Assembly (NCBI GenBank): GCA_003563255.1
Contig: PWSL01000191.1
Span: forward strand, 1 to 21,503
Length of the DNA: 21,503 bases
Direction: 5' to 3'
Source of the DNA: Desulfonatronospira sp.
Lineage (GTDB): Bacteria; Desulfobacterota; Desulfovibrionia; Desulfovibrionales; Desulfonatronovibrionaceae
Positions 1-21,331 of the stretch are shown in pieces (the stretch's first letter is position 1; each line of letters opens with the position of its first letter). Made by a program: the position numbers and the translations under genes. A model generated the notes under the pieces. The model searched no databases. It was not told the DNA's origin and was given only the letters and a program-made list of their open reading frames with translations.

Positions 1-1
1 A

Positions 2-445: not shown

Positions 446-453
446 GTAATATT

Positions 454-4754: not shown

Positions 4755-4755
4755 A

Positions 4756-5601
4756 ATGGTTCTTGAAACACAGAAAGCAAACCTTGATGGCAAAAAAGTT
4801 CGCCATATTCTGGCCCTTTCCGGTGGCAAAGACAGTTCAGCGCTGGCTGTTTACATGCTCGATAAGGTTCCGGAAATGGAATATGTGTTTTGTGATACTG
4901 GCGAAGAGCTTGGTGAAACATACGAGTACATAGAGAAATTAAAAAATTTTCTTTGTAAAGATGTTGCCTGGTTGAAGTCAGACAAAGATTTTAAGTTCTA
5001 TCTTGATATGTACAATGGTGTTCTTCCAGATGCAAACACTAGGTGGTGCACTAGGATGCTTAAAATAAAGCCGTATGAAGAATACATAGGGGATGATCAT
5101 GTGGTTAGCTATGTTGGGATTCGCGCTGATGAGCCTCACAGAAAAGGATATATATCAACCAAGAAAAACATTACTACTGTATACCCCTTTATTGAAAACA
5201 ACATTAGACGAGAAGATGTAATAAGAATCTTGCATGATGCAGGGTTAGGGCTTCCCGATTATTACAAGTGGAGATCGCGTTCTGGTTGCTATTTCTGTTT
5301 TTTTCAGCAAAAAATTGAGTGGATTGGACTTTTAGAAAATCATCCTGAACTTTTCAAAAAAGCAATGAAATATGAAAAGGATGGTTCTGAGTCCAGTGAC
5401 GTTGGTTTCACTTGGTGCCAAAGTGAAAGTCTGAGAAAAATGACTATGCCAATCAGGATAGATCAGATAAAAAAGGAACATAAACTTCGTCAATCAAGGC
5501 TAAATAATGGTTTTATGGCAGAACAAAGATTGGCAGATGTTTGGCTCGATGACTTTACCGATTCGTCAACCAGTACGGCGTGCAATATTTGCCACTTATA
5601 G
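4756..5601 (+). CDS. sspD: PAPS-reductase-fold PP-loop ATP pyrophosphatase, SspD/DndC-like
   Basis: The 281-residue protein has the PP-loop SGGKDS (residues 22-27) of ATP pyrophosphatases. RWCTRMLKIKP follows (Cys98), a motif shared with PAPS reductases and DndC, then SGCYFCFFQQ (Cys178, Cys181). The very C-terminus carries a further CxxC (Cys276, Cys279). These cysteines could hold an iron-sulfur cluster, as known for DndC, or a zinc. The expected role is to activate the DNA backbone with ATP and pass in sulfur received from the cysteine desulfurase encoded next door. DndC proteins are usually near 500 residues, so this compact form fits SspD better. The gene is AT-rich (some lines near 30% GC) compared with sspC. 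It begins one base after the sspC stop and ends 8 bases before sspA. Confidence 0.82.
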   Translation: MVLETQKANLDGKKVRHILALSGGKDSSALAVYMLDKVPEMEYVFCDTGEELGETYEYIEKLKNFLCKDVAWLKSDKDFKFYLDMYNGVLPDANTRWCTRMLKIKPYEEYIGDDHVVSYVGIRADEPHRKGYISTKKNITTVYPFIENNIRREDVIRILHDAGLGLPDYYKWRSRSGCYFCFFQQKIEWIGLLENHPELFKKAMKYEKDGSESSDVGFTWCQSESLRKMTMPIRIDQIKKEHKLRQSRLNNGFMAEQRLADVWLDDFTDSSTSTACNICHL

Positions 5602-5609
5602 GAAATTCT

Positions 5610-6743
5610 ATGCCGATATACTGGGACCATAACGCTACTACTCCATGTGCCGATGAAGTAATTAAGGCCATGCAGCCTTTTTACTCAGAGAAATACGGTA
5701 ATCCGTCAAGCCCACACGTAGCTGGCAAAACAGCAAAAATTGCAATTGAAGAAGCTCGTCAAAAAGTTGCTGTGCTTGCTAATTGTCTTCCCGAGGATAT
5801 CTTTTTTACATCGGGAGCTACAGAAAGTAATAACATTATTTTTTTAAGCATGTTGCTTGTCGAGTGTAGCAAAAGAAAACAAATAGTTACATCACATCTT
5901 GAACACAAATCTGTTTCTGAGCCGATAATGATATTGGCTGAAAAGGGCTTTGAGGTTTTATATTTACCAACTAAAAATGGAGTTGTTGATATTGATGAAG
6001 CCGCAAATATCATAACGCCAAAAACAGCACTTGTTTCTGTGCAGGCCGCTAACAATGAGATCGGCACACTACAGCCGATTAAAGAATTGTCTGAAATATC
6101 ACATAAGGTTGGCGCATATTTTCACACTGATGCCGCACAGGCATTAGGGAAAATTGATGTTGATCTTGATTGGTGGGGGTGTGATCTTGCGTCATTTAGT
6201 TCTCACAAATTATATGGTCCTAAAGGCGCGGGCGCTCTTTTTGTAAAGAGGGGGCGTTCTGGGTTTCCCTGGCCTTGCGTATTACGAGGTGGTGACCAAG
6301 AGCAGGGTTTAAGGCCTGGGACAGTCAATGTTCCAGCGGTGGTAGGTTTCGGAGAAGCGTGTGCGTTAGCTACAAGATATCTTTTTGACGATATCGCCAA
6401 GTTATCTTCATTGCGAGATTGGCTGGAAAAAACACTTTTGGATTGGTTTCCATGGTGCATCATTCACGCCCAGGATGCACCAAGACTTCCTGGCACCACA
6501 AGCTTAGCGATTCCAGGCTTACCGGCAGACTTGCTGATTTCTAATTGTAGGGATTTCTGTATATCTTCTGGGGCTGCCTGCTCTCATGGTACTGTTGGTT
6601 CGTCGTTTACCTTACAGCAAATCACTTCGGATACCAAGATACTTGATGCCACGATAAGGATTTCACTTGGCAGGTCTTCCACAAAAGAAGACGTAACCAA
6701 GTTTGTTCATAGTATTAGTAAAATACTGAAGAGGTTGTCTTGA
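5610..6743 (+). CDS. sspA: cysteine desulfurase, IscS/DndA/SspA type
   Basis: A 377-residue, full-length class V aminotransferase-fold enzyme that releases sulfur from L-cysteine as a persulfide using pyridoxal phosphate. Visible family motifs are DHNATTP at the N-terminus, TSGATESNN (residues 67-75), EHKSV (98-102), HTDAAQALGK (172-181), the PLP-binding Lys200 in SSHKLYGPKG, and the catalytic Cys324 in SSGAACSHG. In this operon it should feed sulfur to the SspD-like protein. The ATG at 5610 is chosen because the protein then starts MPIYWDHNATTP as in relatives; an in-frame GTG at 5580 inside sspD would add ten residues that do not fit. A housekeeping IscS is unlikely, since no iscU, iscA or hscA gene is nearby and both neighbours belong to phosphorothioation. 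The symbol follows the Ssp system and is unrelated to stringent starvation protein A. Confidence 0.88.
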   Translation: MPIYWDHNATTPCADEVIKAMQPFYSEKYGNPSSPHVAGKTAKIAIEEARQKVAVLANCLPEDIFFTSGATESNNIIFLSMLLVECSKRKQIVTSHLEHKSVSEPIMILAEKGFEVLYLPTKNGVVDIDEAANIITPKTALVSVQAANNEIGTLQPIKELSEISHKVGAYFHTDAAQALGKIDVDLDWWGCDLASFSSHKLYGPKGAGALFVKRGRSGFPWPCVLRGGDQEQGLRPGTVNVPAVVGFGEACALATRYLFDDIAKLSSLRDWLEKTLLDWFPWCIIHAQDAPRLPGTTSLAIPGLPADLLISNCRDFCISSGAACSHGTVGSSFTLQQITSDTKILDATIRISLGRSSTKEDVTKFVHSISKILKRLS

Positions 6744-6744
6744 T

Positions 6745-9054
6745 ATGGATACTGTCTTGGAATCATTGCGGAGAATTAGTTTTGGGAAACGACACGACAA
6801 GGTCAGCCCGCACAAGTTTGCGTTGCTGTTAGCTTTAGCTCAGTTGTATGAAAATAATCCAGATCGTGAAAATAAGTTTACTATTCAAACAGATAATCTT
6901 GAACAATTGTTTAAGAGTAACTTTCAACGTTTAGACTCGGAATACAACCATAATTTAGCTACCATAGATCACCCGTTTTTTTATTTGAAAAATGACGGTT
7001 TTTGGTTTCTTGTTGTCAAGCCAGGATGCAAAGATAGATACAGTGTAATTGAAAGCTCAAAAGATATGAGATTTACAAAAAAGAGGCTACTGGAGCTAGT
7101 TGATTATGCTTATTTTTCTGCTAAGTTTGATCAATGCTTGCGTACACGGAAATGCAGAAACGATTTTTGTAGAGAAATTATTAAATTGTTTGGTGATCAC
7201 CGCAATGAAATTAAGCTAAAATTTAGCAATTTACACGATTATACCAATTGCGATGGAATAAGTGAGCCAAAGCTTAGACATGAAAAAGAAACACCTTTCA
7301 ACAAATTTGTTACTTATTTAAATTCCTTGCAAAGAACAAACGCCAAAAACGAAAATTCCCTTGCCGAGTCACAGGCTTGTAACCCTTTATTTGCGGAAAT
7401 CCACGTTCCTCAGCCTATCGCAAAGCACATTGTACACGATCTTTCAAGCCAGAAAGGCAGGCATGTCATCCTGACAGGCCATGCCGGCGACGGTAAATCT
7501 ACGGTGGCCCTTGAGGTTTTCAAACAACTAATGGGAATTCCTGCAAAGGAAGCGCTTTCAGGTTACCTGTCTGAGCGCGTTGATATCCCCGACCGACCAA
7601 TAACGCTTGTTAAAGACCTTAGCGAACGTCATCGCGATCAGGATAATGAATTGCTACAAGAGCTGCTGGCACAAGATCGACGCTTTCTCTTGGTCTCCAA
7701 CACCGGGACTTTGCTTGATTTCTTTAAAAGCCAGGCTTCAAGTCTGAAAGTCGATGAAGTGAGTTTGGAAAGCCAAGTTCTGACAGCAATCAGCCAGCCC
7801 AGCGGTGAAGGGAGTCTCGTCCTTGGCGAGGTGTCGTTTCATGTCTTTAATATGGCCCTGATGGACAACTTGCCTGTTGCGCGGCAAATTTTCGAAAAAA
7901 TTGTCACCTCCAACCTGTGGGATGACTGCACACATAGAAAATGTCGGCCTCAATGCCCGATATGCCTGAATATCGATTTGCTCAAGCACCACCAGGGAAG
8001 GGTGTTGGAGCGGATTTTTTTAGCATATCGCCGAATGTATGAATATGGCACCAGGCTTACCATTCGCCAGTTGACGGAACATATCGCTTACATGGTTACA
8101 TCCGGCCTGGAGGAAGCCGATATCAGGACAATGCACGAAAGGCAGGATAATATCGGCTCGGAGTATATGTTCTTCAACCGTTTTTTTGGCGATAACGGGC
8201 GTGCAGACGATCCTGCGGCGCAGCAAATGCATACTGTCCGGGAGATCAAAAGACAAGAGTTCGGGGGGCGGCTACTTCCTGCCTGGGAAAGAAAACTGTG
8301 GCTACGGTCCCATGGTTCCAAAATTCCCATAGGAGTTGCCGGTTACAGTCAGCAATTTGACAGATTGCGCGAATTGGGCAGCAGGGGGGGTGTGCATGCC
8401 AGGGAACAGGTGCGTCGCATTCTCTACTTCCTTTACGATTTTTCAACGGATGACCATTCATATCTCGCAAACTACCTTAATTCTCCAGCTATTTTGCGGT
8501 GGTCTGGTTGGCAAACTGCCGGTGCCAAACTTCAAGAATCCGAAAGGGTAAAGCTACGCCAACAAGTGTTCCATGTCTTGCAGGAACATCTCACCGGGGT
8601 ACGACTTCCTGAAATTTCCAGTCACCACCGTGATGACCAACGACTTTATGTAACGTTGAGTCGTCGACGCAACGAGGTCAGGCAGAGCGCACAGGTAGTA
8701 TTAGCGTACGTTGACTGGAACACGGCCACGAATCTTTCCCTTGATATTAGGCCCAATGTGACCGGTAATTATCGGGCCGAGTTAGTGCTCAAGGGACAAG
8801 CCCCGATCGAAGGGGTTGATTTGCCACTAACCCTGCCGTTTTTAGATTATGTGCTCATGCGCCACTTCGGTGAACTGGGCGAAGTGCTTCAGGCGGCATA
8901 CGTCGAGCGCCTGGAGAGATACAAGGCGCAGATACAAGAAGGAGCTGGCTCTGCAGGGGAAAGTGTGATGTTGGTTCGCCTGAAAACAGATCACACTTTT
9001 CGTCGCCAACATTATACTCTGCATAACAATCGGCTGGAGGTGAGTGATGTCTGA
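6745..9054 (+). CDS. dptF: DptF/SspF-type ATPase with N-terminal SBD-like phosphorothioate-binding domain
   Basis: The 769-residue protein has two parts. Residues 1 to about 125 resemble the sulfur-binding domain (SBD) of McrA-type HNH nucleases such as ScoMcrA. SPHKFALLLALAQLYE (21-36) matches the PHKPLLLL helix, and HPFFYLKNDGFWFL (76-89) matches the PFxxLxxDGxW hairpin that builds the pocket for the phosphorothioate sulfur. Residues from about 210 form the DptF-like ATPase, with Walker A GHAGDGKS (245-252, Lys251) and a putative zinc knuckle Cys395-x4-Cys400-x3-Cys404-x2-Cys407. LTIRQLTEHIAYMV follows. DptF is a subunit of the PT-dependent restriction complex DptFGH (DndFGH; SspFGH in Ssp systems) and is usually near 500 residues, so the SBD-like part is extra. 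The first 200 codons are about 31% GC in counted lines against about 52% later, which suggests the domain was acquired separately. It starts one base after sspA and overlaps dptG by 8 bases. Confidence 0.78.
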   Translation: MDTVLESLRRISFGKRHDKVSPHKFALLLALAQLYENNPDRENKFTIQTDNLEQLFKSNFQRLDSEYNHNLATIDHPFFYLKNDGFWFLVVKPGCKDRYSVIESSKDMRFTKKRLLELVDYAYFSAKFDQCLRTRKCRNDFCREIIKLFGDHRNEIKLKFSNLHDYTNCDGISEPKLRHEKETPFNKFVTYLNSLQRTNAKNENSLAESQACNPLFAEIHVPQPIAKHIVHDLSSQKGRHVILTGHAGDGKSTVALEVFKQLMGIPAKEALSGYLSERVDIPDRPITLVKDLSERHRDQDNELLQELLAQDRRFLLVSNTGTLLDFFKSQASSLKVDEVSLESQVLTAISQPSGEGSLVLGEVSFHVFNMALMDNLPVARQIFEKIVTSNLWDDCTHRKCRPQCPICLNIDLLKHHQGRVLERIFLAYRRMYEYGTRLTIRQLTEHIAYMVTSGLEEADIRTMHERQDNIGSEYMFFNRFFGDNGRADDPAAQQMHTVREIKRQEFGGRLLPAWERKLWLRSHGSKIPIGVAGYSQQFDRLRELGSRGGVHAREQVRRILYFLYDFSTDDHSYLANYLNSPAILRWSGWQTAGAKLQESERVKLRQQVFHVLQEHLTGVRLPEISSHHRDDQRLYVTLSRRRNEVRQSAQVVLAYVDWNTATNLSLDIRPNVTGNYRAELVLKGQAPIEGVDLPLTLPFLDYVLMRHFGELGEVLQAAYVERLERYKAQIQEGAGSAGESVMLVRLKTDHTFRRQHYTLHNNRLEVSDV
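9036..9040 (+). promoter_or_regulatory. ribosome binding site that decides the dptG start
   Basis: GGAGG ends six bases before the ATG at 9047 but only three bases before an in-frame GTG at 9044, so ATG 9047 is the better start. The site lies within the end of dptF. Confidence 0.6.
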
Positions 9055-10678
9055 AACTTTTCCATACCAAGCCAACGGCGAAAGAGCATACAGAAACAAC
9101 CCAGCCATTCAATTATTTGGAAACAGGCTTTTTACCGACCAGACCCCGGTTGAGTTTTTGGTCGAGTTTCTGTTGTTGACTACATCACCAAAAAGAATTG
9201 AAGGCAATGGCAGCTTTGATGATCCGCTGCCTTCTGAGGATATATTGCAGGATTGGTCAAACAGCAAACTTGAATACGCACCAAAATCACGTCTTAATTT
9301 GAAATTATTTTCATTTTTGGGGTCTTCTCGACTTGAATCACGCCATAAGACTCATCGTGAACACCGTTTTGATTTGTTGAATATTCTTAAGTCTAAAACT
9401 GCTTTAACAGGCATTGGGAATAAAGATGATGTTGTTCGCACTCTTGAAAATCTTTTTCTTGGGTTTCAAGGTGCAGGTAGTGGCAGGACATGGTGTGCAC
9501 AAAATTTTTTGCCAGTTTGTGAAGGTTTTCTTGCCGGAGAGCGTATTTGGAAAGAGACAAGGGCGAGGACTACTCAGCCAAAAGAATGGGAAGATTTGTT
9601 GAATAACCCCTCATATTTTTTTGAAACTGGGCAGCGTGTAATTCTGGCCCGAGGCGGGGAAGTACTGTACCTGCAAATATGTAACGCCCTCAGGCAAGAC
9701 AAGGAAATCATACGACAATGGGCGGAAGAAAGCGGTGTGATGCTGGACTCTACCAACAATAATGATGAACAAGATCCGGCATGGCTACACGCGGAACTTA
9801 TGCGGGAATTGGGCAGCCTCATGCACAAATGCCCGAAGGCCATCACCGAGTTGGCCGAATTTATCGATAGTGGCATAGAACCTGAAACCGCTGAAAAAAC
9901 CGATTTTCGTAGTGATTCCCCCCGCTATGTAAGCGCTGGCTGGTGTCCAGTGGAAAGTTGGCAGGAGGGTTACCTTTTTGCGGTTGAGCTGCTGCGGCTG
10001 TGCAAGTCAAACCTTGATGTTATCGACCGCATTTATTTGCTGGAAACTGCTTGTGCGATGCAGGTTTTACGTAGTTTGGCTTTTCAAAGTGCCCGCTATA
10101 CCCCCACCAACCACTTTGCCGCTTGGCCCGGTTACCGCCTGGCTGTCTCCGCGCCGGAAGAAAACCGACCAATAGTGAAAAGAGTTTCACAGCAAACGGT
10201 AAAGATGATCGAGAAGCAAATATTCCAGGCAATCCGCAACGAAGACCGTGGAATCGCTTTGCCTGATAACGAAAAGGAGCGCAACAAGGTTCTCAAGGAG
10301 GCAGATAATCGTTACGCCGGAAAACTTTTTATCAAATTGGCCAAACGGCTCGGGCTGGTTATCCCTCGGCGCGGTGCAGGCGCCCGGTTTGTCTTGAACG
10401 AACAACTGTTGCGCCTTTTGGTTCTAACCGTGGTTCCCAAGGGGGGGCGGATCACATATGGTCGTTTCAAGGAAATTGTTGAGCGCCGTTTCGGCCTGGT
10501 GTTCGACGCCGACGGTATAGGACAGGCCGGTGAGTGGCTTGCGGATGGCAATCGGGTCTATTTACCCAATGATACCGACAACTGGCTACAAGAGATGTTG
10601 GAAGCTGCCGGATTCCTGCTCCGCTTGTCTGATTCCTGCGCCATGGTTGTGGAAGATCCGGCCGCAGCTTGTCCTTGA
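9047..10678 (+). CDS. dptG: DptG/SspG-like subunit of the phosphorothioation-dependent restriction complex
   Basis: A 543-residue protein between dptF and dptH, the fixed place of DptG (DndG, SspG) in this restriction module. It shows no ATPase motif, signal peptide or membrane segment. The C-terminal 100 residues contain RLLVLTVVPKGGRITYGRF, then a helix pair ending GEWLADGNRV, which looks like a winged-helix DNA-binding region. The call rests on gene order, length and general resemblance and not on a catalytic motif. DptG is needed together with DptF and DptH for restriction, but its own activity is not known. The 5' third (about 9180-9600) is AT-rich, near 37% GC in counted lines, while the 3' end reaches about 60%; this is another sign of a mosaic operon. 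The start overlaps dptF by 8 bases and the stop is 11 bases before dptH. Confidence 0.7.
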   Translation: MSETFPYQANGERAYRNNPAIQLFGNRLFTDQTPVEFLVEFLLLTTSPKRIEGNGSFDDPLPSEDILQDWSNSKLEYAPKSRLNLKLFSFLGSSRLESRHKTHREHRFDLLNILKSKTALTGIGNKDDVVRTLENLFLGFQGAGSGRTWCAQNFLPVCEGFLAGERIWKETRARTTQPKEWEDLLNNPSYFFETGQRVILARGGEVLYLQICNALRQDKEIIRQWAEESGVMLDSTNNNDEQDPAWLHAELMRELGSLMHKCPKAITELAEFIDSGIEPETAEKTDFRSDSPRYVSAGWCPVESWQEGYLFAVELLRLCKSNLDVIDRIYLLETACAMQVLRSLAFQSARYTPTNHFAAWPGYRLAVSAPEENRPIVKRVSQQTVKMIEKQIFQAIRNEDRGIALPDNEKERNKVLKEADNRYAGKLFIKLAKRLGLVIPRRGAGARFVLNEQLLRLLVLTVVPKGGRITYGRFKEIVERRFGLVFDADGIGQAGEWLADGNRVYLPNDTDNWLQEMLEAAGFLLRLSDSCAMVVEDPAAACP

Positions 10679-10689
10679 GAGAGGTGAAC

Positions 10690-13600
10690 ATGAGATTCTT
10701 TACCAATGCCGTCTTAAGCCATATCACCGAAAAAGTCGCTAAGTATCAGGGTGTTGCAGCCGGGCAACGGATGATCATGATGATTCCGGAAATGCCGGCC
10801 CCAAACCTATTGGCCATTACCGATGCCTTGGCCAGTTATTGCATGGCAAGGCCCGATATCGAACTTACCCTGAAAATTGCCAAGATATTGACCGACAAAT
10901 GGGAGGATGCAGAAAAGCAAAAGGCCAAAGAGCAACGGTGGCTGGATGATCGCGGCAATCTTACCTATTACCGCAATATTGTCCCGACAGATGGCAAATT
11001 ATCATTGGTGGTATTGTGCGGGGCAGATCGGGTAACCGATTCGGCCAGCTTGGCGGATTTTCATTCTTGCACCCCGGATATCATTTGGCGGCATGATATG
11101 TCGCAAAGCTTCAGCGGCTGGATGGAGCAGAAAATGTGGGAATTCGGCATTAGTGCCGACCAGGCTGCCGACCTGCAATCGTTTGATCGCATCCTGAAAC
11201 CCTTGATCGACTACGGCCGTGGCGATCTTCTGCGGATCAGCAATTGGCTGGAAAAAGTTGATTTGAGCCATGCCGGGGATGTCTTTGATGTCCAGAAAAT
11301 CATCTTATCTCAACTGCAAGAGTTCGGCTTGCCCTCCTTCGCGCTGTTTCCTTTGCAGCAAAAAAACAAGTCTTTTGGCCCCTATCTTAATAGAGCTGGG
11401 TCGTTTTTTGCCTATACCCTTTTCCTTGAAGCACGGGAGCGGGACAAAGCCATCAAAGCCATTGCCAATCTGCTTGAAACGCTTGTTGATGGGGAAGACC
11501 CTGGATTTTCGCTGGAAGACGAAGATGTCCTTGGTCCTTACAATTCCGGCGAAGAATTGTTGAATGGCCTGCGGTGTTACATAGAGGAAGATAACCAGGT
11601 AGAGCGTGCCAAATTGTTGCAATGCGATTTTGTCACCATCCTCGACAAGGTGCTCAAGTATCGCCCCAAGAGTTCTGAAAAAGAAAAAACCACCATTCGT
11701 AAAATATCCGGCAGTCCCACGGAAATGATTCTCACCGCCATCTGGCGGAGTTTGGCAGATTTTTCTCGTGATCGTAATATTGACCCTGATGCTCAGATTA
11801 CCGAAATAACCATCCGAAGCGATGTTTTTAAGCACGACATGGATGAGGGTGAGGAGTCGGAAGACGACGATTTAGCCGGTGGCAACGACTACATCGATAA
11901 AAACGAAAGAGCTGCGGCCTACTTGGCATGTTTGGTCGGCGGCCTTGCCGATTTTCTACCCGAACGTATTGATTTGACAAACCAAAGTGGTGATGAAGTT
12001 GCCGTATCCTGTTCCCTGGTGCATGACGAAATTAAGTACCAATACACCAAAACCGCCGAGCCTTTGTTGGCTTTTTCCGTTGAGATCAACACCGACACCG
12101 AGCCGAAACCTCTTCGCCGAAAATTTGCCTGGCGACTTCCAGAACATCACCCCTACCGATTGTCACAATCGCTGATCTTGAAAGCCAAAACGGCTCTGGA
12201 TGCTCATCGGGCAACCAACAAGCTGCCGGTTTTTCATTTGCCCTATTACGACGAACTTCTTCGGACGTTTTCCGATGAAGAGACCAGGCGGGTTCTGCTG
12301 CATTGTATACGTGATGAAAGAGGTGATGACAGTTTTCTCACCAATCTTTTGAGTGATGACTGGCTGGATGTTGACGATACAGCGTTTGGCCAGCTCAAAA
12401 CACTGGCCGCCGGTTATCACCGTTTTGTCAGGGCGGCCCACGAGCGCGGTGTGCTTGCCGCTTTGCTCACCGAACAGGGAAGAACCGAGGAATGGACCAC
12501 ACTCACCAAGGCCTATAAAGACGCTTGCCAGGCAGCAACCAAGGATGAAGATGCGATCGCTTCGCCCTCGGCCGGCATGTTGTTCCGGGCCTTTTTGATT
12601 ATTTCTGAACGTGATGGTGGCACCACGGAATGGTATGCCGACCAGTATGAGCAATCAGGAATTGTCACCGTCCTGCATCCAGTTTTGCTGGAAATGCTGG
12701 AGGCTCAGATTATCTACTTGTTCCAGTGCTTTAATTATGCAGCGAGAAATGAAATCTTACGCGATGACCGCCGCAACTCTTTCAAGGACCACATTTGGCG
12801 TTCTTATGTGGACCTGGCCACTATACAGGCCCCGCTGGCCGGCCTTTTGGCTAATGAGGACAAAAACCTCGACACCAATATTCGCGGGCAAGAACTGATT
12901 CACCTGCTTGGTAAATCTCAGCATGAGGAGGGCACCCTATCCACCCGGCTGTTGTCCAATTACGACATTGTCAGCGACGACGATGATGTTTCCGATACTG
13001 AAATGTTTCGGATGACCAGCGAATCACAACTTTTGCTACGCTTATTGCGCGATTATTTACATTTGCACCCCCACGCTCGTGACGGCTTGAGCCTGGCCGT
13101 CTTTATGAACCGGGACATTCAGCCGGTGATTGCCGCCGTCCATCAATTTTTGCATTGTCTTGCCGACCACAAACAACCAAAGACATATATCCTCCATCGC
13201 AAGCGCAAACGGCCCTATGCGATCAGTGTTACCTTTTTTACCGAGTCCAGTGATGATTCCGATGTTGCAAGATGGATCGAACAGTGGCGGGAGCGGTGGG
13301 AGGCTGCCGAGTCGGAAAAGAAGTATGCTCCTTATAAATTCTGTCGTTTTACCGTGGCCCATCGCTTGGTGGAAAAAGGTGAACAAGGCTCCTTTCAGCG
13401 CTTGCTCAAAGAGAACTATGAGGCCGATATTGCGGTTTTCTACGATTTCATTGGGGCCGGCGAGAGCAGTAATCGTTTTGAGCGGGTACGGCCGTTTCAC
13501 ATTACGGATATCGACCTTAAATTTCCCATTCTGGAAAAAGCCTGCTGCACCATCGATACCCCCGCCGACAAATATCGACGCTCTCGGATCACCAGTAATC

Positions 13601-16200
13601 GGCAGTTTACTTTGGGGGCGGACCACACCAACCTGATGCACTGCTTGGCCAAGGAATCGCCCCAGACCGACACCATTGTGGTCGGCAGCGGAGATTTCAA
13701 GCCGTGGCAGACCGTAATCGACGAACTACACGACAAAACCGAATGGGTGGTTTGCGTTGACCCCAATATCGATGAACGGCTTATTGGGCAACCGCTACAG
13801 CAGTCAGCTCAAGACCGGCAAGAACGAGAGATTATCGGCTTTGGTTCCGGTGTGGGCAATCATGGTGAAAATAATTACACCGTTTCCACGGAACAGTTCA
13901 CTTTGGCTGATGTTCATGCCCGTCTCCACGCGGCCCTTGCTTCTCATTTTGCCGATACCGGATGGACAGCGGATGAGTGTCAAAAGATAACCAGAGGGAT
14001 TCTGCAGGAGGCCCGCAAGTTGTCCGGGTTGTCGCTGGTGCGCGCTACCGGGGTTGACGATAATCATCTTCGTGATTTCATGGCTTATGCCCTGGTCAGA
14101 AGAATGTTGCGGGAAGAGAAAGACTCCACCCTTTGCGATGATTTCATTTCTCTAGACGCCTACCGTCACTGGTTTGATTTGGCGGATAAAATGGACAGAC
14201 CTGACCTGCTGTGGCTCAAGGCAAAAATAGGTGATGATCAACGCCTGCATCTGGAAATGCAGCTTATTGAATGCAAGGTCGCCAAAGAATCCCATGAGCA
14301 TTTGCACAAAGCTCGTCAGCAGATTGATAATGGTCTTAGTGTGCTCAAAAAGTCCGCCTTTGTTCCCATTCACTCCTGTTCGGAGGAAGATCGGCGACCT
14401 GACCAAAGATATTGGTGGATGCAGCTTCATCGTCTGATTGCCAGCAAAGCGGAAACCAAGCGTGGCCGGCAAGCGGTGGTAACAACCGCCCTGGAACGCC
14501 TGGCAGAAGGCGACTTTGAGATTGAATGGAAGGCGGTGGTTTTTGCCTTTTGGATCGACAAGAATGATGATCGACTACAGCGTATTGGCGCCTGGGAAAG
14601 TCCCGCAGGGGTTCGGGCCGACATTTTTACAACCGGCAGCACCTTCATCAAGAATTTGGCGACGGCTCAGCAGGGTTTCTCCTTTTCATGGGAAGAACTG
14701 CAACAAAAGGCCGTTGCGGCCCCCGGCAATGTCTGCGAATTTATGGAGGATGAAGAATTCCCTGAAAGCCCGGAGGATAATGATTCGGCGATTTGGGATG
14801 GAGATGATTCTGACGATTCTATTGATGATGATTACCCTGGCGATGTTGCCGAGGAAGTCTTGCCGGACGATACCGTAGCAGTAGACCTGGCGAGTGCTGA
14901 CAACATCGTGGTGTCGGCAGACGACCCCTTGCAAAAAACAAAACAAAAGGTCGTCTCCGGGCAAACAACCGGGACAGAAAAAGATTCGCAACAGCAATAT
15001 ATTCAAACCGTTCCCGACTCCGGTGTTGCTGCCGAAATACCCGGGCCAGCCGGCTCGCAAGTGCCAGACCGCATTCTACTGGGTACCACCATCCCCAAAG
15101 GGCAGCCGGTCTACTGGGAATTTGGCCACCCCGGCCTGGAAAACCGGCACGTACTCATTTTTGGCAAGTCGGGAATGGGTAAAACCTATGCCATTCAATG
15201 CCTGCTCAATGAAATGGGCCGCAGTCGGCAGCATAGTTTGATTATTGACTACACTGACGGTTTTTTGCCCAATCAGCTTGAGGCCGTTACCAATGATGTG
15301 TTGCGGCCGGTACAGCACGTGATTCGGCAAAACCCCTTGCCGATCAATCCGTTTATACCCAAGTCTTCAGATCATGGCGGTATTGCGATTAAAGAAAACG
15401 CCAATGCGGTAGCCAAGAGAATAGCCAGCATTTTCGAGGCGGTTTATGGCATAGGCGATCAGCAGTTCAGTGTGTTGCATGAAGTCATAATGGATGGCGT
15501 TGAACAGTATGGGATTCAGATGAGTCTTGAGCGCATGATGGCGTTGATCGAGGAACGAATGCAGGAACGGCAGCAGAAAAGTGCGGCTCAAACATTATTC
15601 AGCAAAATTCGCCCTTTCGTTTTGGATCGACCCTTTGGTAACGGTGAGGGTAAATTGGAGTGGAGTGATGTGTTGCTCGATGCGGAAACTTTCTGCCATA
15701 TTTTTCAGCTTTACGGTCTAGATATGCATTCGCGTAAACTAGTAACCGAATTTGTCATGTGGGATTTATACGGCTACTTGCAGACCAAGGGAGACAAAAA
15801 CAAACCTAAAGTTTTGGTGCTGGATGAGGTGCAAAACCTTGATTTAAGGGAGGGAAGCCCGCTTTCAAAGTGTCTGCGGGAAGGGCGCAAGTTTGGTTTG
15901 TCGCTAATCATGGCAACCCAGATCATGAGCAGCATGAGAAAAGATGAACGGGACAAAATGTTTAATGCCGCCCAAAAGCTGTTCTTTCGACCGGCAGACA
16001 CCGAATTAAAATCATTTGCCGATATTGCAGCCATGTCAACCCGCCGTAAGTCTGATGAATGGGTGCAAATGCTTGCCTCCCTTGGTAAAGGGGAGTGCTA
16101 TGCCATCGGTCCAGCCTGGAACCCTACCACCGACAAGCTTTTTCCCCAGGCTCAAAAGATCAAGATTACCTCGCTGGAGGAGCGTGGTTTCAATGTCTAA
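10690..16200 (+). CDS. dptH: DptH/SspH-like HerA/FtsK-type ATPase with candidate nuclease domain
   Basis: The largest protein of the locus (1836 residues). The C-terminal domain is a HerA/FtsK-like motor. It has Walker A GKSGMGKT (residues 1492-1499), then LIIDYTDGFLPNQLE, Walker B VLVLDEVQNLD (Asp1712, Glu1713) and the sensor ATQ near 1744. The NRHVLIFGKSGMGKTY plus IDYTDGF pattern is typical of DptH. Residues about 1120-1210 contain RPDLLWL (Asp1172) followed 22 residues later by IECK (Glu1194, Lys1196), a plausible PD-(D/E)XK nuclease core, unproven. Acidic linkers lie at about 385-405 and 1352-1393, and the stretch to about 1457 is low-complexity. The N-terminal 1100 residues have no domain recognised here. 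It should be the motor and possibly the cutter of the restriction complex. The ATG at 10690, after GAGAGGTG, is preferred over an in-frame TTG at 10669. The 3' end overlaps the next gene by 8 bases. Confidence 0.8.
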   Translation: MRFFTNAVLSHITEKVAKYQGVAAGQRMIMMIPEMPAPNLLAITDALASYCMARPDIELTLKIAKILTDKWEDAEKQKAKEQRWLDDRGNLTYYRNIVPTDGKLSLVVLCGADRVTDSASLADFHSCTPDIIWRHDMSQSFSGWMEQKMWEFGISADQAADLQSFDRILKPLIDYGRGDLLRISNWLEKVDLSHAGDVFDVQKIILSQLQEFGLPSFALFPLQQKNKSFGPYLNRAGSFFAYTLFLEARERDKAIKAIANLLETLVDGEDPGFSLEDEDVLGPYNSGEELLNGLRCYIEEDNQVERAKLLQCDFVTILDKVLKYRPKSSEKEKTTIRKISGSPTEMILTAIWRSLADFSRDRNIDPDAQITEITIRSDVFKHDMDEGEESEDDDLAGGNDYIDKNERAAAYLACLVGGLADFLPERIDLTNQSGDEVAVSCSLVHDEIKYQYTKTAEPLLAFSVEINTDTEPKPLRRKFAWRLPEHHPYRLSQSLILKAKTALDAHRATNKLPVFHLPYYDELLRTFSDEETRRVLLHCIRDERGDDSFLTNLLSDDWLDVDDTAFGQLKTLAAGYHRFVRAAHERGVLAALLTEQGRTEEWTTLTKAYKDACQAATKDEDAIASPSAGMLFRAFLIISERDGGTTEWYADQYEQSGIVTVLHPVLLEMLEAQIIYLFQCFNYAARNEILRDDRRNSFKDHIWRSYVDLATIQAPLAGLLANEDKNLDTNIRGQELIHLLGKSQHEEGTLSTRLLSNYDIVSDDDDVSDTEMFRMTSESQLLLRLLRDYLHLHPHARDGLSLAVFMNRDIQPVIAAVHQFLHCLADHKQPKTYILHRKRKRPYAISVTFFTESSDDSDVARWIEQWRERWEAAESEKKYAPYKFCRFTVAHRLVEKGEQGSFQRLLKENYEADIAVFYDFIGAGESSNRFERVRPFHITDIDLKFPILEKACCTIDTPADKYRRSRITSNRQFTLGADHTNLMHCLAKESPQTDTIVVGSGDFKPWQTVIDELHDKTEWVVCVDPNIDERLIGQPLQQSAQDRQEREIIGFGSGVGNHGENNYTVSTEQFTLADVHARLHAALASHFADTGWTADECQKITRGILQEARKLSGLSLVRATGVDDNHLRDFMAYALVRRMLREEKDSTLCDDFISLDAYRHWFDLADKMDRPDLLWLKAKIGDDQRLHLEMQLIECKVAKESHEHLHKARQQIDNGLSVLKKSAFVPIHSCSEEDRRPDQRYWWMQLHRLIASKAETKRGRQAVVTTALERLAEGDFEIEWKAVVFAFWIDKNDDRLQRIGAWESPAGVRADIFTTGSTFIKNLATAQQGFSFSWEELQQKAVAAPGNVCEFMEDEEFPESPEDNDSAIWDGDDSDDSIDDDYPGDVAEEVLPDDTVAVDLASADNIVVSADDPLQKTKQKVVSGQTTGTEKDSQQQYIQTVPDSGVAAEIPGPAGSQVPDRILLGTTIPKGQPVYWEFGHPGLENRHVLIFGKSGMGKTYAIQCLLNEMGRSRQHSLIIDYTDGFLPNQLEAVTNDVLRPVQHVIRQNPLPINPFIPKSSDHGGIAIKENANAVAKRIASIFEAVYGIGDQQFSVLHEVIMDGVEQYGIQMSLERMMALIEERMQERQQKSAAQTLFSKIRPFVLDRPFGNGEGKLEWSDVLLDAETFCHIFQLYGLDMHSRKLVTEFVMWDLYGYLQTKGDKNKPKVLVLDEVQNLDLREGSPLSKCLREGRKFGLSLIMATQIMSSMRKDERDKMFNAAQKLFFRPADTELKSFADIAAMSTRRKSDEWVQMLASLGKGECYAIGPAWNPTTDKLFPQAQKIKITSLEERGFNV
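14203..14277 (+). other. candidate PD-(D/E)XK catalytic motif inside dptH
   Basis: This part of the dptH frame encodes Asp1172 in RPDLLWL and, after a variable turn, Glu1194 and Lys1196 in the strand MQLIECKVA. The spacing and the hydrophobic strands fit the PD-(D/E)XK nuclease fold, and helical residues precede it (ALVRRMLREE). No structure or alignment was available, so this is a motif-level call. Confidence 0.5.
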
Positions 16201-17035
16201 AAAAACGGCGTTTAAGCGGCTTCCAAGGAATTTTCATAAAACATTCAAGCCGGAAAGACACTATATCAGCGCCATGCTAAGATTTGCCGCCGCTAGGCAG
16301 ACTGGCAGCTTTTGGGATATTTCGAAAAAAACCGGTATTCCCATGGGCAAGTCCAGCGGAAAGGTGCCGGCCATCTTGGATTATTGCCGGGGAATGGGGT
16401 TGATAGAACTGCCCAACACAGCACTAAAAAAGCCAAAGCTTACCGAGTTCGGGCGGATAGTATTTCTTGAAGACCCTTTCCTAAAGACTGAAATAAGTCA
16501 ATGGTTGGCTCATTTTCATCTTTGCAGCCCTTTGCATGGCTCTGATGTTTGGTATCATTCTTTCTTTGCGGGTGCGCAAGCACTTGGTAATCGTTTCAGT
16601 AGAGGGAATTTGGAAGCTTACCTGAAGGTCGTCTATGGCGTCAGCAAGGGCAGATTGGTTGGTCCCTTACTTAACACTTATAACGACGAGGCGGCATTGA
16701 AAGTATGCGGAGCTTTGGCTATCGGCAACGATGAATTGATTCAACGCAGACCGGCCCCAATAAACAGCAAGTTAATTTTGGGATATGGTGCTTGGATGCT
16801 GCAATTAATCGACAACCATTTTCCTGGCGAGCAACAAGTCTCTGAAGCCGAGCTTGACCTTAAGGCTGGTTGGCGAACCATCCCGGGCTGGAATAACAGT
16901 CCATGGCAGATTGTTTTAGGCAGAATCGAACAAAAAGGCTTACTGAGTGTAGACAGGCATATGCAACCTTGGCTGCTGTCTCCCCGAAAAGGCGCACGAG
17001 AAGCGTGGAGAGCCATTTTCGATGACATGATTTGA
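16193..17035 (+). CDS. second, diverged DUF4007-like protein (SspB paralogue)
   Basis: A 280-residue protein that follows the DUF4007 layout of the first gene although identity is low. NFHKTFKPERHYI (residues 13-25) stands where FSGHQTFAFRY is in the first. DISKKTGIPMGKSSGKVPAIL (42-62) stands where AIVELGVGKNMVDSI is. KLTEFGRIVFLEDPFL, then QWLAHFHLCSP (103-113) and WYHSFF, match LTDFAHNLL and WLLHWKLCTN. The GHQTF part of the hallmark is lost, so nickase activity is uncertain; it may have another specificity or act only in DNA binding through the helix-turn-helix near residue 42. The ATG at 16193 is chosen over upstream in-frame starts because it follows GGAGG (16176-16180) and gives the family N-terminus. 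It overlaps dptH by 8 bases and is followed 18 bases later by a second SspC-type ATPase, so the pair repeats sspB-sspC. Confidence 0.62.
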   Translation: MSKKTAFKRLPRNFHKTFKPERHYISAMLRFAAARQTGSFWDISKKTGIPMGKSSGKVPAILDYCRGMGLIELPNTALKKPKLTEFGRIVFLEDPFLKTEISQWLAHFHLCSPLHGSDVWYHSFFAGAQALGNRFSRGNLEAYLKVVYGVSKGRLVGPLLNTYNDEAALKVCGALAIGNDELIQRRPAPINSKLILGYGAWMLQLIDNHFPGEQQVSEAELDLKAGWRTIPGWNNSPWQIVLGRIEQKGLLSVDRHMQPWLLSPRKGAREAWRAIFDDMI

Positions 17036-17042
17036 GCTGTAT

Positions 17043-17048
17043 AAGGAG
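17043..17048 (+). promoter_or_regulatory. ribosome binding site of the last operon gene
   Basis: AAGGAG is five bases before the ATG at 17054, in the 18-base gap after the second DUF4007 gene. It is one of the clearest ribosome sites in the operon, which suggests this ATPase is translated on its own initiation and not only by coupling. Confidence 0.6.
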
Positions 17049-17053
17049 TAGTT

Positions 17054-20000
17054 ATGGCCGAGAAACTTTGCGAAATAGTCCGCTTCCGCGAAGATCGTTT
17101 GTTCTATGGAGCCGTCAGTATCAACTGGTTTAGTACGGACAGAGACAAGACGGACGCAGCAGCCAATGCCTTTATTTTTCATGGTCCCCAGTACCACGGT
17201 GTCCAGCAGGACGACGTTGGTGTTAGCCACGAACATAACTTGATTGATTCGGCCAATTTTACCCGAAGTGTAATTCGCCGGTGTTATGGTATTGAAGACC
17301 AACCATTCACATTGGCAATTGCCGGCTATGGTAGCGGCAAATCTCATCTCGGCCTTACGTTGGCCAAAATGCTTAGCGATCCTCAAGACCGAACAGCCCA
17401 AAACATCTTGGATGCCATTACATCTGCAGACCATGCCATTGGCGAAGATGTCAAAACGATTCTGAACCAATCAACCCAACCATGCCTTGTTGTTGCGTTG
17501 AATGGTATGCAATCTTTTGATTTCACTGCAGAGTTCACTAAGCAGATTGTAAGCCGTTTAAGACATGACGGCCTGGACTCCAAACCTTTTGATGAGTTGC
17601 GGCCAAGATTTGGTCAAGCCGTCAGATTGATTCGCATGGCCAGTGAAACAGTGACTACAAAGCTTGTGAAAGCTCTTGATTCTCCTTCCATTGAGCAAAT
17701 TATTGCTGAACTGGAGCAGCAAGATGAGCATGTTTATTCAAAGGTTCATGATTTTTTCGCTGCAGAAGGAATGACCATTCGCGCCCTGGCTGGGGAGTCT
17801 GTGAAAGACGTAATTGATATCGCTGCGAAAGAATATTGTGGTGAGGGGAAGCCATATCGTAGCCTACTGGTGCTATTTGATGAATTCGGAAAGTATACCG
17901 AATTTGCCACCATGCGTAGCCAAATTGCTGGCAGCGGTGTTTTGCAGGATCTTTTTGAAGGTATACAGGCAAACGCTGGTACAACCTGTTTTGTGGGTTT
18001 TATCCAGTTTGATTTGAACTCCTACATAGATCGGGTGGCCCCTGAGTATAAAAATGAGATTTTACGGTATGTAACGCGATACCAATTGTCGGACAAACTA
18101 TTTCTTTCCACCAACCTGGAAACACTGATTGCCAATTTGCTGGAAAAAGAACAAGTCGCGTTTTTGAATAAGCAATTCGATTGTGAAAAAATGCGAACCA
18201 TTTCGGCGGATGCCATGAACAGCATTGGGAAATGGTTCCCGGCAGCTCGCAGATATAGACTCTGGAGCAATCACGAACAGTTCCACAATGTGGTGGCCAA
18301 AGGTTGCTGGCCGCTATCTCCCTATACAACATGGCTTCTATTTTACCTTACTTCCGCCGGCAAGTATTTGCAGGAGCGTTCGGCCCTAGCTTTGATGGTT
18401 GAGGCCTTTCGCAGATTTAGCGACAAAACAATAGAGGCTGGTGAAAACTGGACCATTTCTCCGGCTAATTTATGGTCCGAAATGTTGCTTCAAGATTTTA
18501 TTGGCGCCGAAGAAATGGGGCAGCAAGGGGCTATAGCTCATGCTTATGCGACTGTCGACGCAAAATACGGTTCACGGTTGTCCCATGAACTGATTTTGTT
18601 GCTCAGAGCTGTAGTGTTAGCTAGTAAACTTGGATTAAAAGTCGCCGACAAGGAGGAAGCCGTTCGGGCCTTGGCCTGCCTGGCGGGGGTTGATTTTGAC
18701 AACGCCGGCCAAGGGGTTAATTTACTGCAAGACGAATACAATGTGCTGGAGTGGGACGAAGCCTTCAAATCCTTTGATATCCTTGGTGATGCAGTTCCAC
18801 GTACTCAGTTTCTTGCCCATCTTCGCCAGAAAGCGCGCTCTTACAGTGAGGAATCCAGGGCGCAGCTTTTTGCCGGCAAAGCACTTGAATGGTGTGAGTT
18901 GCTGGTCGATGTTGAATGCGATTTCGCCGAAGTCAACAACATCACCACCCGTGAATGGCGATACCAAGCCGTGGCAGCCAATCTTACCAACTTGCCCGCT
19001 CAGGTCATACTTGCCAGCCAGCAGTGGCAAGATGCTATCCAGGTAGATACCCCTAGAGGGACGGTGATTTATCTGTATGTAGATGCCAACCGCGATCCAG
19101 ATACGGTTAGCTCTACGGCAAGGCAACTTTTGCGGGAAACAGCCAAAGAACTGCACCAGGCAACATTGCCGATTCTGCTGGTCCTCCTTTATGACGAAGA
19201 GGGTACTTTTGGTCAATATTTGGCTGAATATTCGGTTTTACAGGAAATGAGCGATGCTGAGAGGGCTCAATTCGGAAATCTTGTTGGGGCGCAACAGGAA
19301 AAATTGCGCAAAGTGATCTACGACACCGTGGAGCAGATGATCAAAGAGCGGCGTTATGTGACCGGAATGAAAGAGAAGCCGGTCGCTCGGCGCTTAGCAC
19401 AAGTGGGGTCGGGATTGTTTTCGGAAATTTACAACTCCCCCATTCCCTTTCCATTTGATGGTTTCAGTACGTCCCGGGGCAATGCCGCTGAGACCTGTCA
19501 TGAATTAACTCGCGAACTGCTCACCGGCAAGTTGGATTTTGAGGGGGTGCTTGCCAAGCCACAAAAGTCTAGACACCGTGCCACGAGGGTATTGAAGGAA
19601 AAATGGGGGGTGTTCAACCCAAAGCTGGGAACGGTAACAAGAAGGCCAACTTTGCCTGTTATTCGTGACCTTACCGAAAAATGGGACGACGCACTTGTAG
19701 CCGAACAGCGTCTATCCGTAGGCGATATCATCAAGGATATTTGCTTGCCGCCGTATGGGGCCAATATAGCATCGGCCGGTTTACTTTTGGCCGTTTATAT
19801 CGCCCCAAGGGCAAACGAGTTGGCAATAGTTAAAGGCAAAGAACAAATCGCCATCTCCCAATGGATTCAAGAAGGGGTTTTCAAGAGTAAATTCGTCAGC
19901 TTGCCGTTGATTTCAGACGTGGAGTTGATGCAGCTTGGCGATGGTCCTTCCGAATGGGAAACAATTCTTGATGAATGGGAGCAGTGTCCAGACCATGTTG

Positions 20001-21331
20001 GAAAAGTTAGTATGGTTGAGCGGGTTATGGAGTTGAAAAAAAGGGTTCCGGTGCCACCTATGTTGGCCTATCGATATCAGGCTCTACTTGAGCAGACTCG
20101 TGCCAGTAAAGAACATATTGAAAAGATGGAACAAAAACAAAATGAAGTTCTGTCAAAGCTCCAGAATGGATATCAACGTCAGGACGTCGCTACGCTTGTT
20201 TGGGGCGCCATTGACTTGAAGAAAATTCACAACCGAATGGTGGCGGAACATCCAGCCTGGCCGGAATCACAGATAGCTACCATACAGTCCGGACTGGAAC
20301 AATCTATCTTGGCAATCCAAGATCTTTTTCCAAAATGGCTTTTCCAACAAACTCCTAGCGCTGACACCCCTGTCGCAGTTGGAGATTTTAAGCATAAAAT
20401 GTTGCGCATTGTTACGCCCAGTCTGAAGAAGCTAGGTCTTGAAACAGAGTCCGATGAACTCGAGAAGCATACGCTAAAGGTCATAAGAAATGCCGAAACC
20501 ATTGCCGAAGCCAAGCAGAAATTGCGGGATGTGAAAAATTGGATGACTTCTAATGCTGAAGTTGTTCGAACTGGGCGAATTTTGGAGTTGCGTACCACGA
20601 AAAAAGTCGGCCAAAATTACCTCGAGGAGCTTAAAAAAATAGCTGGGGCAGTACCACTTGCAGATATTTCAGAAACAACAAATGCATTGAATAAATTTAT
20701 AGAAAAATTCCAGATGGCTGAAAATGCTATTTCTAAAAAAGCTGATAAAGTCTGGGGGGCTGAAATAAACAGCGTTAACGATGTAGAAAGACTAATCAAT
20801 GAAATAAATCAGTTAATAAATCTATACGAAGGACTACCGGACGATCTAGAAGATTTTATAATCATAAACAAAGTTCTAAGGTCAATTAAGGACTCATTTG
20901 ATGTATTATCTGATCGTAATCTTACATGGGATATGCTATCTTCATCTTTTCAAATGATCATTGATGATTTGGAAAATTTAATTACAGAAGATGACGAGAT
21001 ACCATGGGAGCCAAAAGTTGTTATCAAATCTTTATACGATGGAATTAAAAAAGATAGAAAAACAAAAAGCACTGAATGGACAAAAATGATTATTAAAAGG
21101 GCTGATAATATTAACAACATGACAGTAGCTGAAGCGAATCAGTTTTTGTCAGAAGCAGAAATTGTTCCACCGTATGTTACGCAAGCTGACAAAGAAAAAT
21201 TGCAGGAAATCATTCAAAAGGTTACCAGCCATCTTGAAAAATTAATAATTGAATGGCTTGTCGAAAAATTCAAGGAATTGTCCGAAGAAAGCAGGCAGGA
21301 ATTTTTAGATATGGTGAGAGAAATTACTTGA
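17054..21331 (+). CDS. second large P-loop ATPase, SspC/BrxC-like, with helical C-terminus
   Basis: A 1425-residue cytosolic protein. Walker A is AGYGSGKS (residues 90-97, Lys96) and Walker B is LLVLFDEFGKY (271-281). The strand FVGFIQFDLNSY with NEILRYVTRYQL lies in the place of LLFLITLHQMFDDY and EWTKVQERF of the first ATPase. A later alpha/beta segment (TLPILLVLLYDEEG, then a helix with GAQQEKLRKVI) resembles the second half of SspC and of BREX BrxC/PglY proteins. From about residue 1010 the protein is mostly helical and probably coiled-coil (KEHIEKMEQKQNEVLSKL). Its family name is not certain. Next to a DUF4007 gene it looks like the partner ATPase of that protein, as sspC is of sspB. The last 240 codons (from about 20600) fall to about 31% GC, against 52-65% in counted lines before, so the C-terminal part may have a different origin. 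No terminator hairpin is seen after the stop. Confidence 0.6.
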   Translation: MAEKLCEIVRFREDRLFYGAVSINWFSTDRDKTDAAANAFIFHGPQYHGVQQDDVGVSHEHNLIDSANFTRSVIRRCYGIEDQPFTLAIAGYGSGKSHLGLTLAKMLSDPQDRTAQNILDAITSADHAIGEDVKTILNQSTQPCLVVALNGMQSFDFTAEFTKQIVSRLRHDGLDSKPFDELRPRFGQAVRLIRMASETVTTKLVKALDSPSIEQIIAELEQQDEHVYSKVHDFFAAEGMTIRALAGESVKDVIDIAAKEYCGEGKPYRSLLVLFDEFGKYTEFATMRSQIAGSGVLQDLFEGIQANAGTTCFVGFIQFDLNSYIDRVAPEYKNEILRYVTRYQLSDKLFLSTNLETLIANLLEKEQVAFLNKQFDCEKMRTISADAMNSIGKWFPAARRYRLWSNHEQFHNVVAKGCWPLSPYTTWLLFYLTSAGKYLQERSALALMVEAFRRFSDKTIEAGENWTISPANLWSEMLLQDFIGAEEMGQQGAIAHAYATVDAKYGSRLSHELILLLRAVVLASKLGLKVADKEEAVRALACLAGVDFDNAGQGVNLLQDEYNVLEWDEAFKSFDILGDAVPRTQFLAHLRQKARSYSEESRAQLFAGKALEWCELLVDVECDFAEVNNITTREWRYQAVAANLTNLPAQVILASQQWQDAIQVDTPRGTVIYLYVDANRDPDTVSSTARQLLRETAKELHQATLPILLVLLYDEEGTFGQYLAEYSVLQEMSDAERAQFGNLVGAQQEKLRKVIYDTVEQMIKERRYVTGMKEKPVARRLAQVGSGLFSEIYNSPIPFPFDGFSTSRGNAAETCHELTRELLTGKLDFEGVLAKPQKSRHRATRVLKEKWGVFNPKLGTVTRRPTLPVIRDLTEKWDDALVAEQRLSVGDIIKDICLPPYGANIASAGLLLAVYIAPRANELAIVKGKEQIAISQWIQEGVFKSKFVSLPLISDVELMQLGDGPSEWETILDEWEQCPDHVGKVSMVERVMELKKRVPVPPMLAYRYQALLEQTRASKEHIEKMEQKQNEVLSKLQNGYQRQDVATLVWGAIDLKKIHNRMVAEHPAWPESQIATIQSGLEQSILAIQDLFPKWLFQQTPSADTPVAVGDFKHKMLRIVTPSLKKLGLETESDELEKHTLKVIRNAETIAEAKQKLRDVKNWMTSNAEVVRTGRILELRTTKKVGQNYLEELKKIAGAVPLADISETTNALNKFIEKFQMAENAISKKADKVWGAEINSVNDVERLINEINQLINLYEGLPDDLEDFIIINKVLRSIKDSFDVLSDRNLTWDMLSSSFQMIIDDLENLITEDDEIPWEPKVVIKSLYDGIKKDRKTKSTEWTKMIIKRADNINNMTVAEANQFLSEAEIVPPYVTQADKEKLQEIIQKVTSHLEKLIIEWLVEKFKELSEESRQEFLDMVREIT

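Follow-up and report, generated by a model that had tools for sequence, protein, structure and literature searches.

The described system closest to the locus reported here is SspABCD-SspFGH, in which sspBCD(A) accompany an F-G-H cassette, and in E. coli the published defence takes no more than F, G and H in addition to the marking set (PMC8092258; this and the other reports are cited from the accessible part of each text). Its hallmarks are single-strand phosphorothioation at CCA and FGH-dependent phage defence. Type-4 bacteriophage exclusion (BREX) comprises DUF4007 (SspB), an SspC-like BrxC, a 3′-phosphoadenosine 5′-phosphosulfate (PAPS) reductase, PglZ and BrxL, and is described with one DUF4007 and one BrxC (PMC12839542). 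The BREX-related HerA/FtsK capture (BRC) systems join DUF4007, a BrxC-like ATPase and a HerA/FtsK motor, and their listed parts, namely PglZ, DUF6079, STAND NTPase, DUF4007, HerA/FtsK, GNAT and TGT, include no phosphorothioation genes in the accessible text (PMC12839542). In type I BREX, a winged-helix protein, BrxA, partners a large AAA+ ATPase, BrxC (PMC13326643). The window analysed here, the whole 21,503-nucleotide contig PWSL01000191.1 of Desulfonatronospira sp. (C166 in our numbering, from a 3.52-Mb genome of 532 contigs), carries nine genes, all in the same orientation: sspB, sspC, sspD, sspA, sspF-like, sspG-like, sspH-like, B2 and C2. With sspB, sspC and sspD contiguous and the F, G, H cassette beside them, the window has the gene content of an SspABCD-SspFGH system, but unlike that system as described in the accessible report, which has a single DUF4007-ATPase pair (PMC8092258), in line with the initial annotation, the operon continues behind sspBCD-A and the SspFGH-like restriction module into a second pair, B2-C2 (hereafter pair 2, sspB-sspC being pair 1). 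Likewise, the window has two such pairs where type I BREX has one ATPase for marking and restriction (PMC13326643), and lacks the PglZ and BrxL of type-4 BREX, neither of which was matched among its nine genes by Pfam or PADLOC profiles.

Profile-profile comparison identified B2 (gene 8; 16193..17035, + strand, 280 amino acids) as a diverged homologue of the DUF4007 protein SspB (E 1.8e-17) and C2 (gene 9; 17054..21331, + strand, 1425 amino acids) as one of SspC (E 2.8e-29), confirming the proposal of the initial annotation that the operon closes with a second, diverged DUF4007-ATPase pair. B2 passed the curated cut-off of Pfam PF13182 (29.2 bits versus 27), and its predicted structure matched solved SspB far better than any other fold. 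C2 gave local matches to SspC profiles rather than a full-length one (best 7e-14, PADLOC), yet belongs with the SspC/BrxC-like ATPases in the broad sense, with homology across the body and Walker motifs at corresponding positions, as the initial annotation had noticed: Walker A at residues 92-97 and Walker B at D276-E277, together with a PPYG motif at 899-902. Both Walker motifs were kept in 12/12 C2 proteins examined from loci with an F-G-H cassette (FGH type). The possibility that genes 8 and 9 are unrelated to DUF4007/SspC, which the initial annotation had named as fatal to its idea, was rejected by the profile-profile matches and the fold match of B2.

Despite this kinship, B2 differs from SspB at particular residues. 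When 23 SspB rows were aligned with 22 B2 rows, 15 of the latter of FGH type, the SspB residues H11, F14, D82, W92, H95 and Y157 proved to be retained in 20-22 of the 22 B2 rows, D82 and H95 in all of them. By contrast, R17 and K23, both invariant in SspB (23/23), were replaced by E in 15/15 and by A in 14/15 FGH-type B2, respectively, and E86, present in 22/23 SspB, was retained in 0/15, with K, G or S in its stead, placing B2 outside the SspB subgroup as defined by these three residues. The pattern suggests that FGH-type B2 is an SspB scaffold with a different binding surface; a nickase activity has been reported for SspB itself (PMC7188994).

The idea that pair 2 is an oddity of one assembly was rejected, as it recurs: scanning one genome per species for the pattern gave 10 loci with pair 2, and C2 profile searches of five phylum samples gave matches in 5/395, 1/297, 6/301, 7/288 and 16/289 genomes, some already present in the pattern scan; a plasmid search added 3 records with C2. 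Eight of the 16 matches in the last sample were set aside as SspC, being weak (E 8e-11 to 7e-22) with frames of 1,200-1,245 amino acids, and the two of these genomes inspected (G1373, G1343) had one-pair loci. Two other weak matches (G914 and G778, frames of 1,688-1,729 amino acids) were retained because a second DUF4007 and PglZ-BrxL adjoin them, the G778 ATPase itself scoring SspC-like (PADLOC SspC 2.9e-49). Merging by genome, removing weak SspC-only matches and counting two near-identical Halanaerobiales loci once gave a list of 34 places.

The neighbourhoods of these places, a survey that the initial annotation had called for, placed pair 2 immediately 3′ of sspH in 21/34; the whole F-G-H cassette could be read in 17 of these, the other 4 being truncated by a contig end (L001, L002, G1530, G1360). 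In 7/34 the pair is followed by PglZ-BrxL, namely in T. roseum, Pseudanabaena, Annamia, G850, G916, G914 and G778 (PglZ checked by profile), a resemblance to type-4 BREX. One place has pair 2 behind a weakly DndB-like gene (below the Pfam cut-off) and a ResIII helicase, its other strand bearing a GmrSD-type gene that is SspE-like by eye and a set of sspB, sspC, PAPS-reductase and desulfurase genes. The remaining five were unassignable, three lying on contigs shorter than 4 kb (L007, G1129, G909), one being a C-terminal remnant (G1083) and one retaining a C-terminal part where its contig begins (G1501). Wherever the neighbouring genes could be read (29/29 places), pair 2 adjoins a restriction or effector-like module. 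The junction with sspH is tight, with a gap of -17 to +38 nucleotides in 19/19 loci measured and an 8-nucleotide stop-start overlap in 9 of them; the window shows this same overlap, with 18 nucleotides between B2 and C2. In the 395-genome sample, 5/5 window-type SspG loci had C2 and 5/5 C2 genomes had such an SspG, the profile being weak for this type. Weak SspG matches at L058-L061 belonged to other F-G-H-like operons, in which blastp found no B2 or C2. C2 had no match in phage records, and the 216 pattern stretches taken from viral contigs did not encode it; SspG had no match in plasmids, and H matched 7 plasmid records only at its motor end (16-20% of the query).

Nor is pair 2 found mostly without phosphorothioation genes, an outcome that the initial annotation had held contrary to its idea: 27/34 places share their genome or record with an SspD- or BrxP-type PAPS reductase, which in four of them is on another contig (G778, G909, G1360, G1530). 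Whole-genome searches found no strong SspD match in the L001, L002, L007 and G1129 genomes, where the pair lies on a contig below 13 kb, or in G1083 and G1501, which have only the C-terminal part of C2; the Annamia plasmid (L014), searched alone, had no SspD- or BrxP-type gene. G296 provides a natural control, with a classic sspBCD-FGH-A locus devoid of pair 2 on contig 11 (SspF 1e-145, SspG 5e-136, SspH 0) and a window-type BCD-F-G-H-B2-C2 locus on contig 18. Because this classic locus lacks pair 2 and published SspFGH works without it, pair 2 belongs to a subtype of Ssp-FGH systems. G1422 is a rearrangement found in nature: its marking set is BrxP-type and lies downstream, yet F-G-H-B2-C2 forms one block. 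The parts of the window are of known kinds. In the open-access literature searched, we found no two-pair Ssp system and no account of how such a layout is conserved or linked to the restriction side; a text search of the 2026 BREX survey for duplicates or paralogues gave nothing on it.

To see which half of the system pair 2 follows, family trees, also proposed by the initial annotation, were built, and distances were compared over 10 FGH-type and 4 PglZ-type loci from 27 extracted systems, excluding loci with missing, cut or broken genes. Mean SspC identity was 0.298 both between types and within the FGH type, whereas C2 identity was 0.40 within the FGH type and 0.17 between types. Nearest neighbours crossed type in 3/14 (SspB of pair 1, B1), 4/14 (SspC of pair 1, C1) and 3/14 (SspD, D) cases, and in 0/14 for both B2 and C2. 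SspC mixes the two types, as a clade of FGH-type rows (13) against PglZ-type rows (5) was rejected in the 22-row tree (approximately unbiased test, p-AU 4e-5), whereas the 12 FGH-type rows of the 19-row C2 tree, built by a quick method, formed a single clade (SH-aLRT 100). Across the 10 FGH-type loci, distance correlations were 0.97 for B2-C2, 0.79 for G-B2 and 0.74 for G-C2, compared with 0.28 for G-C1 and 0.22 for G-D, and the partial correlation of C2 with G given C1 was 0.73. These numbers are suggestive of pair 2 going with the restriction module.

Profile matches and gene order show that the two pairs are homologous and that the second is genetically coupled to the restriction module. 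The best reading of these comparisons is that an SspB/SspC scanner-motor was duplicated and then divided, with pair 1 serving marking and pair 2 serving restriction, and we think it probable, with moderate confidence, that B2-C2 provides the restriction module with an ATP-driven platform for scanning DNA. SspC is predicted to encircle DNA and to move along it with SspB (PMC10853773). In the proposed scheme, SspB, SspC, SspD and SspA would insert sulfur into host DNA; C2, guided by the winged-helix protein B2, would build an ATP-driven assembly on DNA and act with SspH (a HerA/FtsK motor), SspG and SspF; and the sulfur-binding domain (SBD) at the front of SspF would read the sulfur mark, sparing DNA that bears it and leaving DNA without it to be damaged. 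The BrxC of type I BREX is proposed to direct marking as well as restriction, and its DNA binding is reduced by BrxA, which binds to it (PMC13326643); here, two specialised copies would replace the one ATPase that does both jobs, and there may be one motor for marking and another for attack. For BREX, it is still to be explained how a single BrxC/SspC-type ATPase can serve both self protection and foreign attack (PMC13326643), and two diverged natural pairs would allow the two jobs to be removed separately. With more hesitation, and slightly on the side of doubt, we extend this to a family of sulfur-marking defence systems in which pair 1 would only mark and pair 2 would only restrict. Pair 2 would then be inherited together with one of several interchangeable effectors (SspFGH, PglZ-BrxL, DndB-helicase), the neighbouring marking module being replaced from time to time. 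Such a modular view of phosphorothioate defences would have a marking module, a second pair and an effector, each exchangeable.

Several observations weigh against assigning pair 2 to restriction. Classic SspFGH functions without it (PMC8092258), and in E. fergusonii BREX, one of two systems studied, a BrxC ATPase mutant lost methylation and retained restriction (PMC13326643), so that even the double role of BrxC varies. Pair 2 also tracks the marking side (C1-C2 0.56, B1-C2 0.59, D-C2 0.44), and a residual link persists once G is accounted for (C2-C1 0.54, B2-D 0.41). Trees and correlations come from 10-12 related loci with the kinship of the hosts uncorrected, and for both the B and the C2 tree the programs warned of long branches. 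The predicted C2 model was poor (predicted local distance difference test, pLDDT, 58), and its fold search gave no match below E 0.1. Moreover, the PglZ-side pairs do not form one tight group, C2 being ~17% identical between types and matching no PADLOC profile in T. roseum and Pseudanabaena, and may be separate recruitments; given the several divergent forms that these pairs take, our assignment is strongest for FGH-type loci.

The initial annotation had instead raised the possibility that pair 2 marks the second strand or a second sequence. In such a scheme B2-C2 would direct the same SspD/SspA there, and SspFGH would read both marks. The homology to SspB-SspC with the same motifs, the residual correlation with C1 and D, and altered SspB-like residues compatible with a new target all agree with this. 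Nevertheless, gene order and trees tie B2-C2 to the restriction genes, R17 and K23 (23/23 SspB) and E86 (22/23) are replaced in FGH-type B2, and the five whole-searched FGH-type genomes with fully read loci (G397-G400, G402) contain one strong SspD each, which makes a second marking specificity less likely than a restriction role and unlikely overall. We consider it quite unlikely, too, that B2-C2 is a safety catch that senses the completeness of marking and keeps SspFGH inactive or frees it upon infection. Unrestrained SspFGH harms unmarked host DNA (PMC8092258), BrxA and BrxB regulate BrxC in BREX (PMC13326643), and B2 correlates with both halves of the locus, the G-C1 correlation given B2 being -0.11 (n=12); against these stand the Walker motifs kept in all 12 FGH-type C2, unnecessary for a passive lock, and the G296 classic SspFGH locus that lacks pair 2.

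A separate anti-phage arm that merely adjoins the Ssp operon, likewise suggested by the initial annotation, would fit the finding that other defence operons repeatedly combine DUF4007-like proteins with ORC/Cdc6-type ATPases and with HerA/FtsK motors (PMC10853773, PMC12839542). With a restriction or effector-like module beside the pair in every readable place and the H-B2 gap short in every locus measured, however, a free-standing arm is unsupported and highly improbable.

The other window genes, all on the + strand, were assigned by profile. On the marking side lie sspB (454..1341, DUF4007; Pfam PF13182 2.3e-76, PADLOC SspB 4.2e-81, PDB 6JUF SspB 9.5e-35); sspC (1338..4754, AAA+ ATPase; PADLOC SspC 5e-298), whose product also matched one BrxC/PglY profile strongly (PADLOC BrxC 6.1e-227); sspD (4756..5601, PAPS-reductase-like; PADLOC SspD 6.5e-111, Pfam PF01507), its start set by eye and searches run from 4744; and sspA (5610..6743, cysteine desulfurase; PADLOC SspA 1.9e-119, DndA 4.1e-119), its start also set by eye and searches run from 5604. 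The restriction module comprises sspF-like (6745..9054; PADLOC SspF 1.4e-25), sspG-like (9044..10678; PADLOC SspG 6.5e-21) and sspH-like (10669..16200; SspH 1.4e-18, Pfam DUF87). An open reading frame (ORF) at 62-445, 5′ of sspB, resembles by eye the end of a Nudix hydrolase gene, with no match in Pfam. Promoter and terminator scans of positions 1-20000 gave signal no better than shuffled sequence, and Rfam and tRNA searches of the window found no matches.

Among the listed places, C2 was visibly broken in three (G1006, G1263, Annamia). In G1006, two same-start ORFs, one a DDE transposase, lie inside C2 (L105:8160-11180, L106:9724-10980), B2 is divided between two frames, and a transposase-like ORF was seen by eye between sspB and sspC. 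In G210, a transposase gene (rve integrase core) and a small partner ORF disrupt sspC (L021:2996-4191); F, G, H and B2 are each a single unbroken tblastn match, as is C2 in L022. A small gene between B2 and C2 was recognisable in 5/7 PglZ-BrxL places and in G909. In three PglZ-BrxL-type loci (L013:15304-15801, L012:18821-19246, L098:10690-11154) it encodes 142-166 amino acids, two of the proteins having no Pfam match and one no PADLOC match. The Halanaerobiales locus (L009, L050) has two DUF4007-ATPase pairs on opposite strands with a weakly DndB-like gene, a helicase, GIY-YIG, a GmrSD-type gene and two PAPS reductases, and is a possible third effector type.

The window SspF, an NTPase, bears its N-terminal SBD, a phosphorothioate reader, at about residues 6-110 (6745-7080; PDB 8H0L E 4e-11 over about residues 11-109, NF045808 1.6e-6), and differs in this from the classic SspF of G296, in which NCBIfam found no match. 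Fifteen proteins from the 17 FGH-type loci with F read were scanned, leaving out G210 and G1422, and NF045808 was present in 13 (E 3.3e-4 or better), L004 and L104 having no match. Four of the 13 also have NERD and kinase domains (L023:12814-17322, L025:7489-12114, L111:5176-9681, L114:5867-10393), a combination that recalls PglW and Mad6, and the L004 SspF (L004:28-3114) has a kinase domain only. In the PglZ-type G850, a stand-alone sulfur-binding-type protein is encoded immediately 5′ of B2. The window H is a mosaic of an SspH-like body (residues 1010-1290) and a HerA/FtsK motor (1432-1807), the motor being nearest to DndH (2.8e-58).

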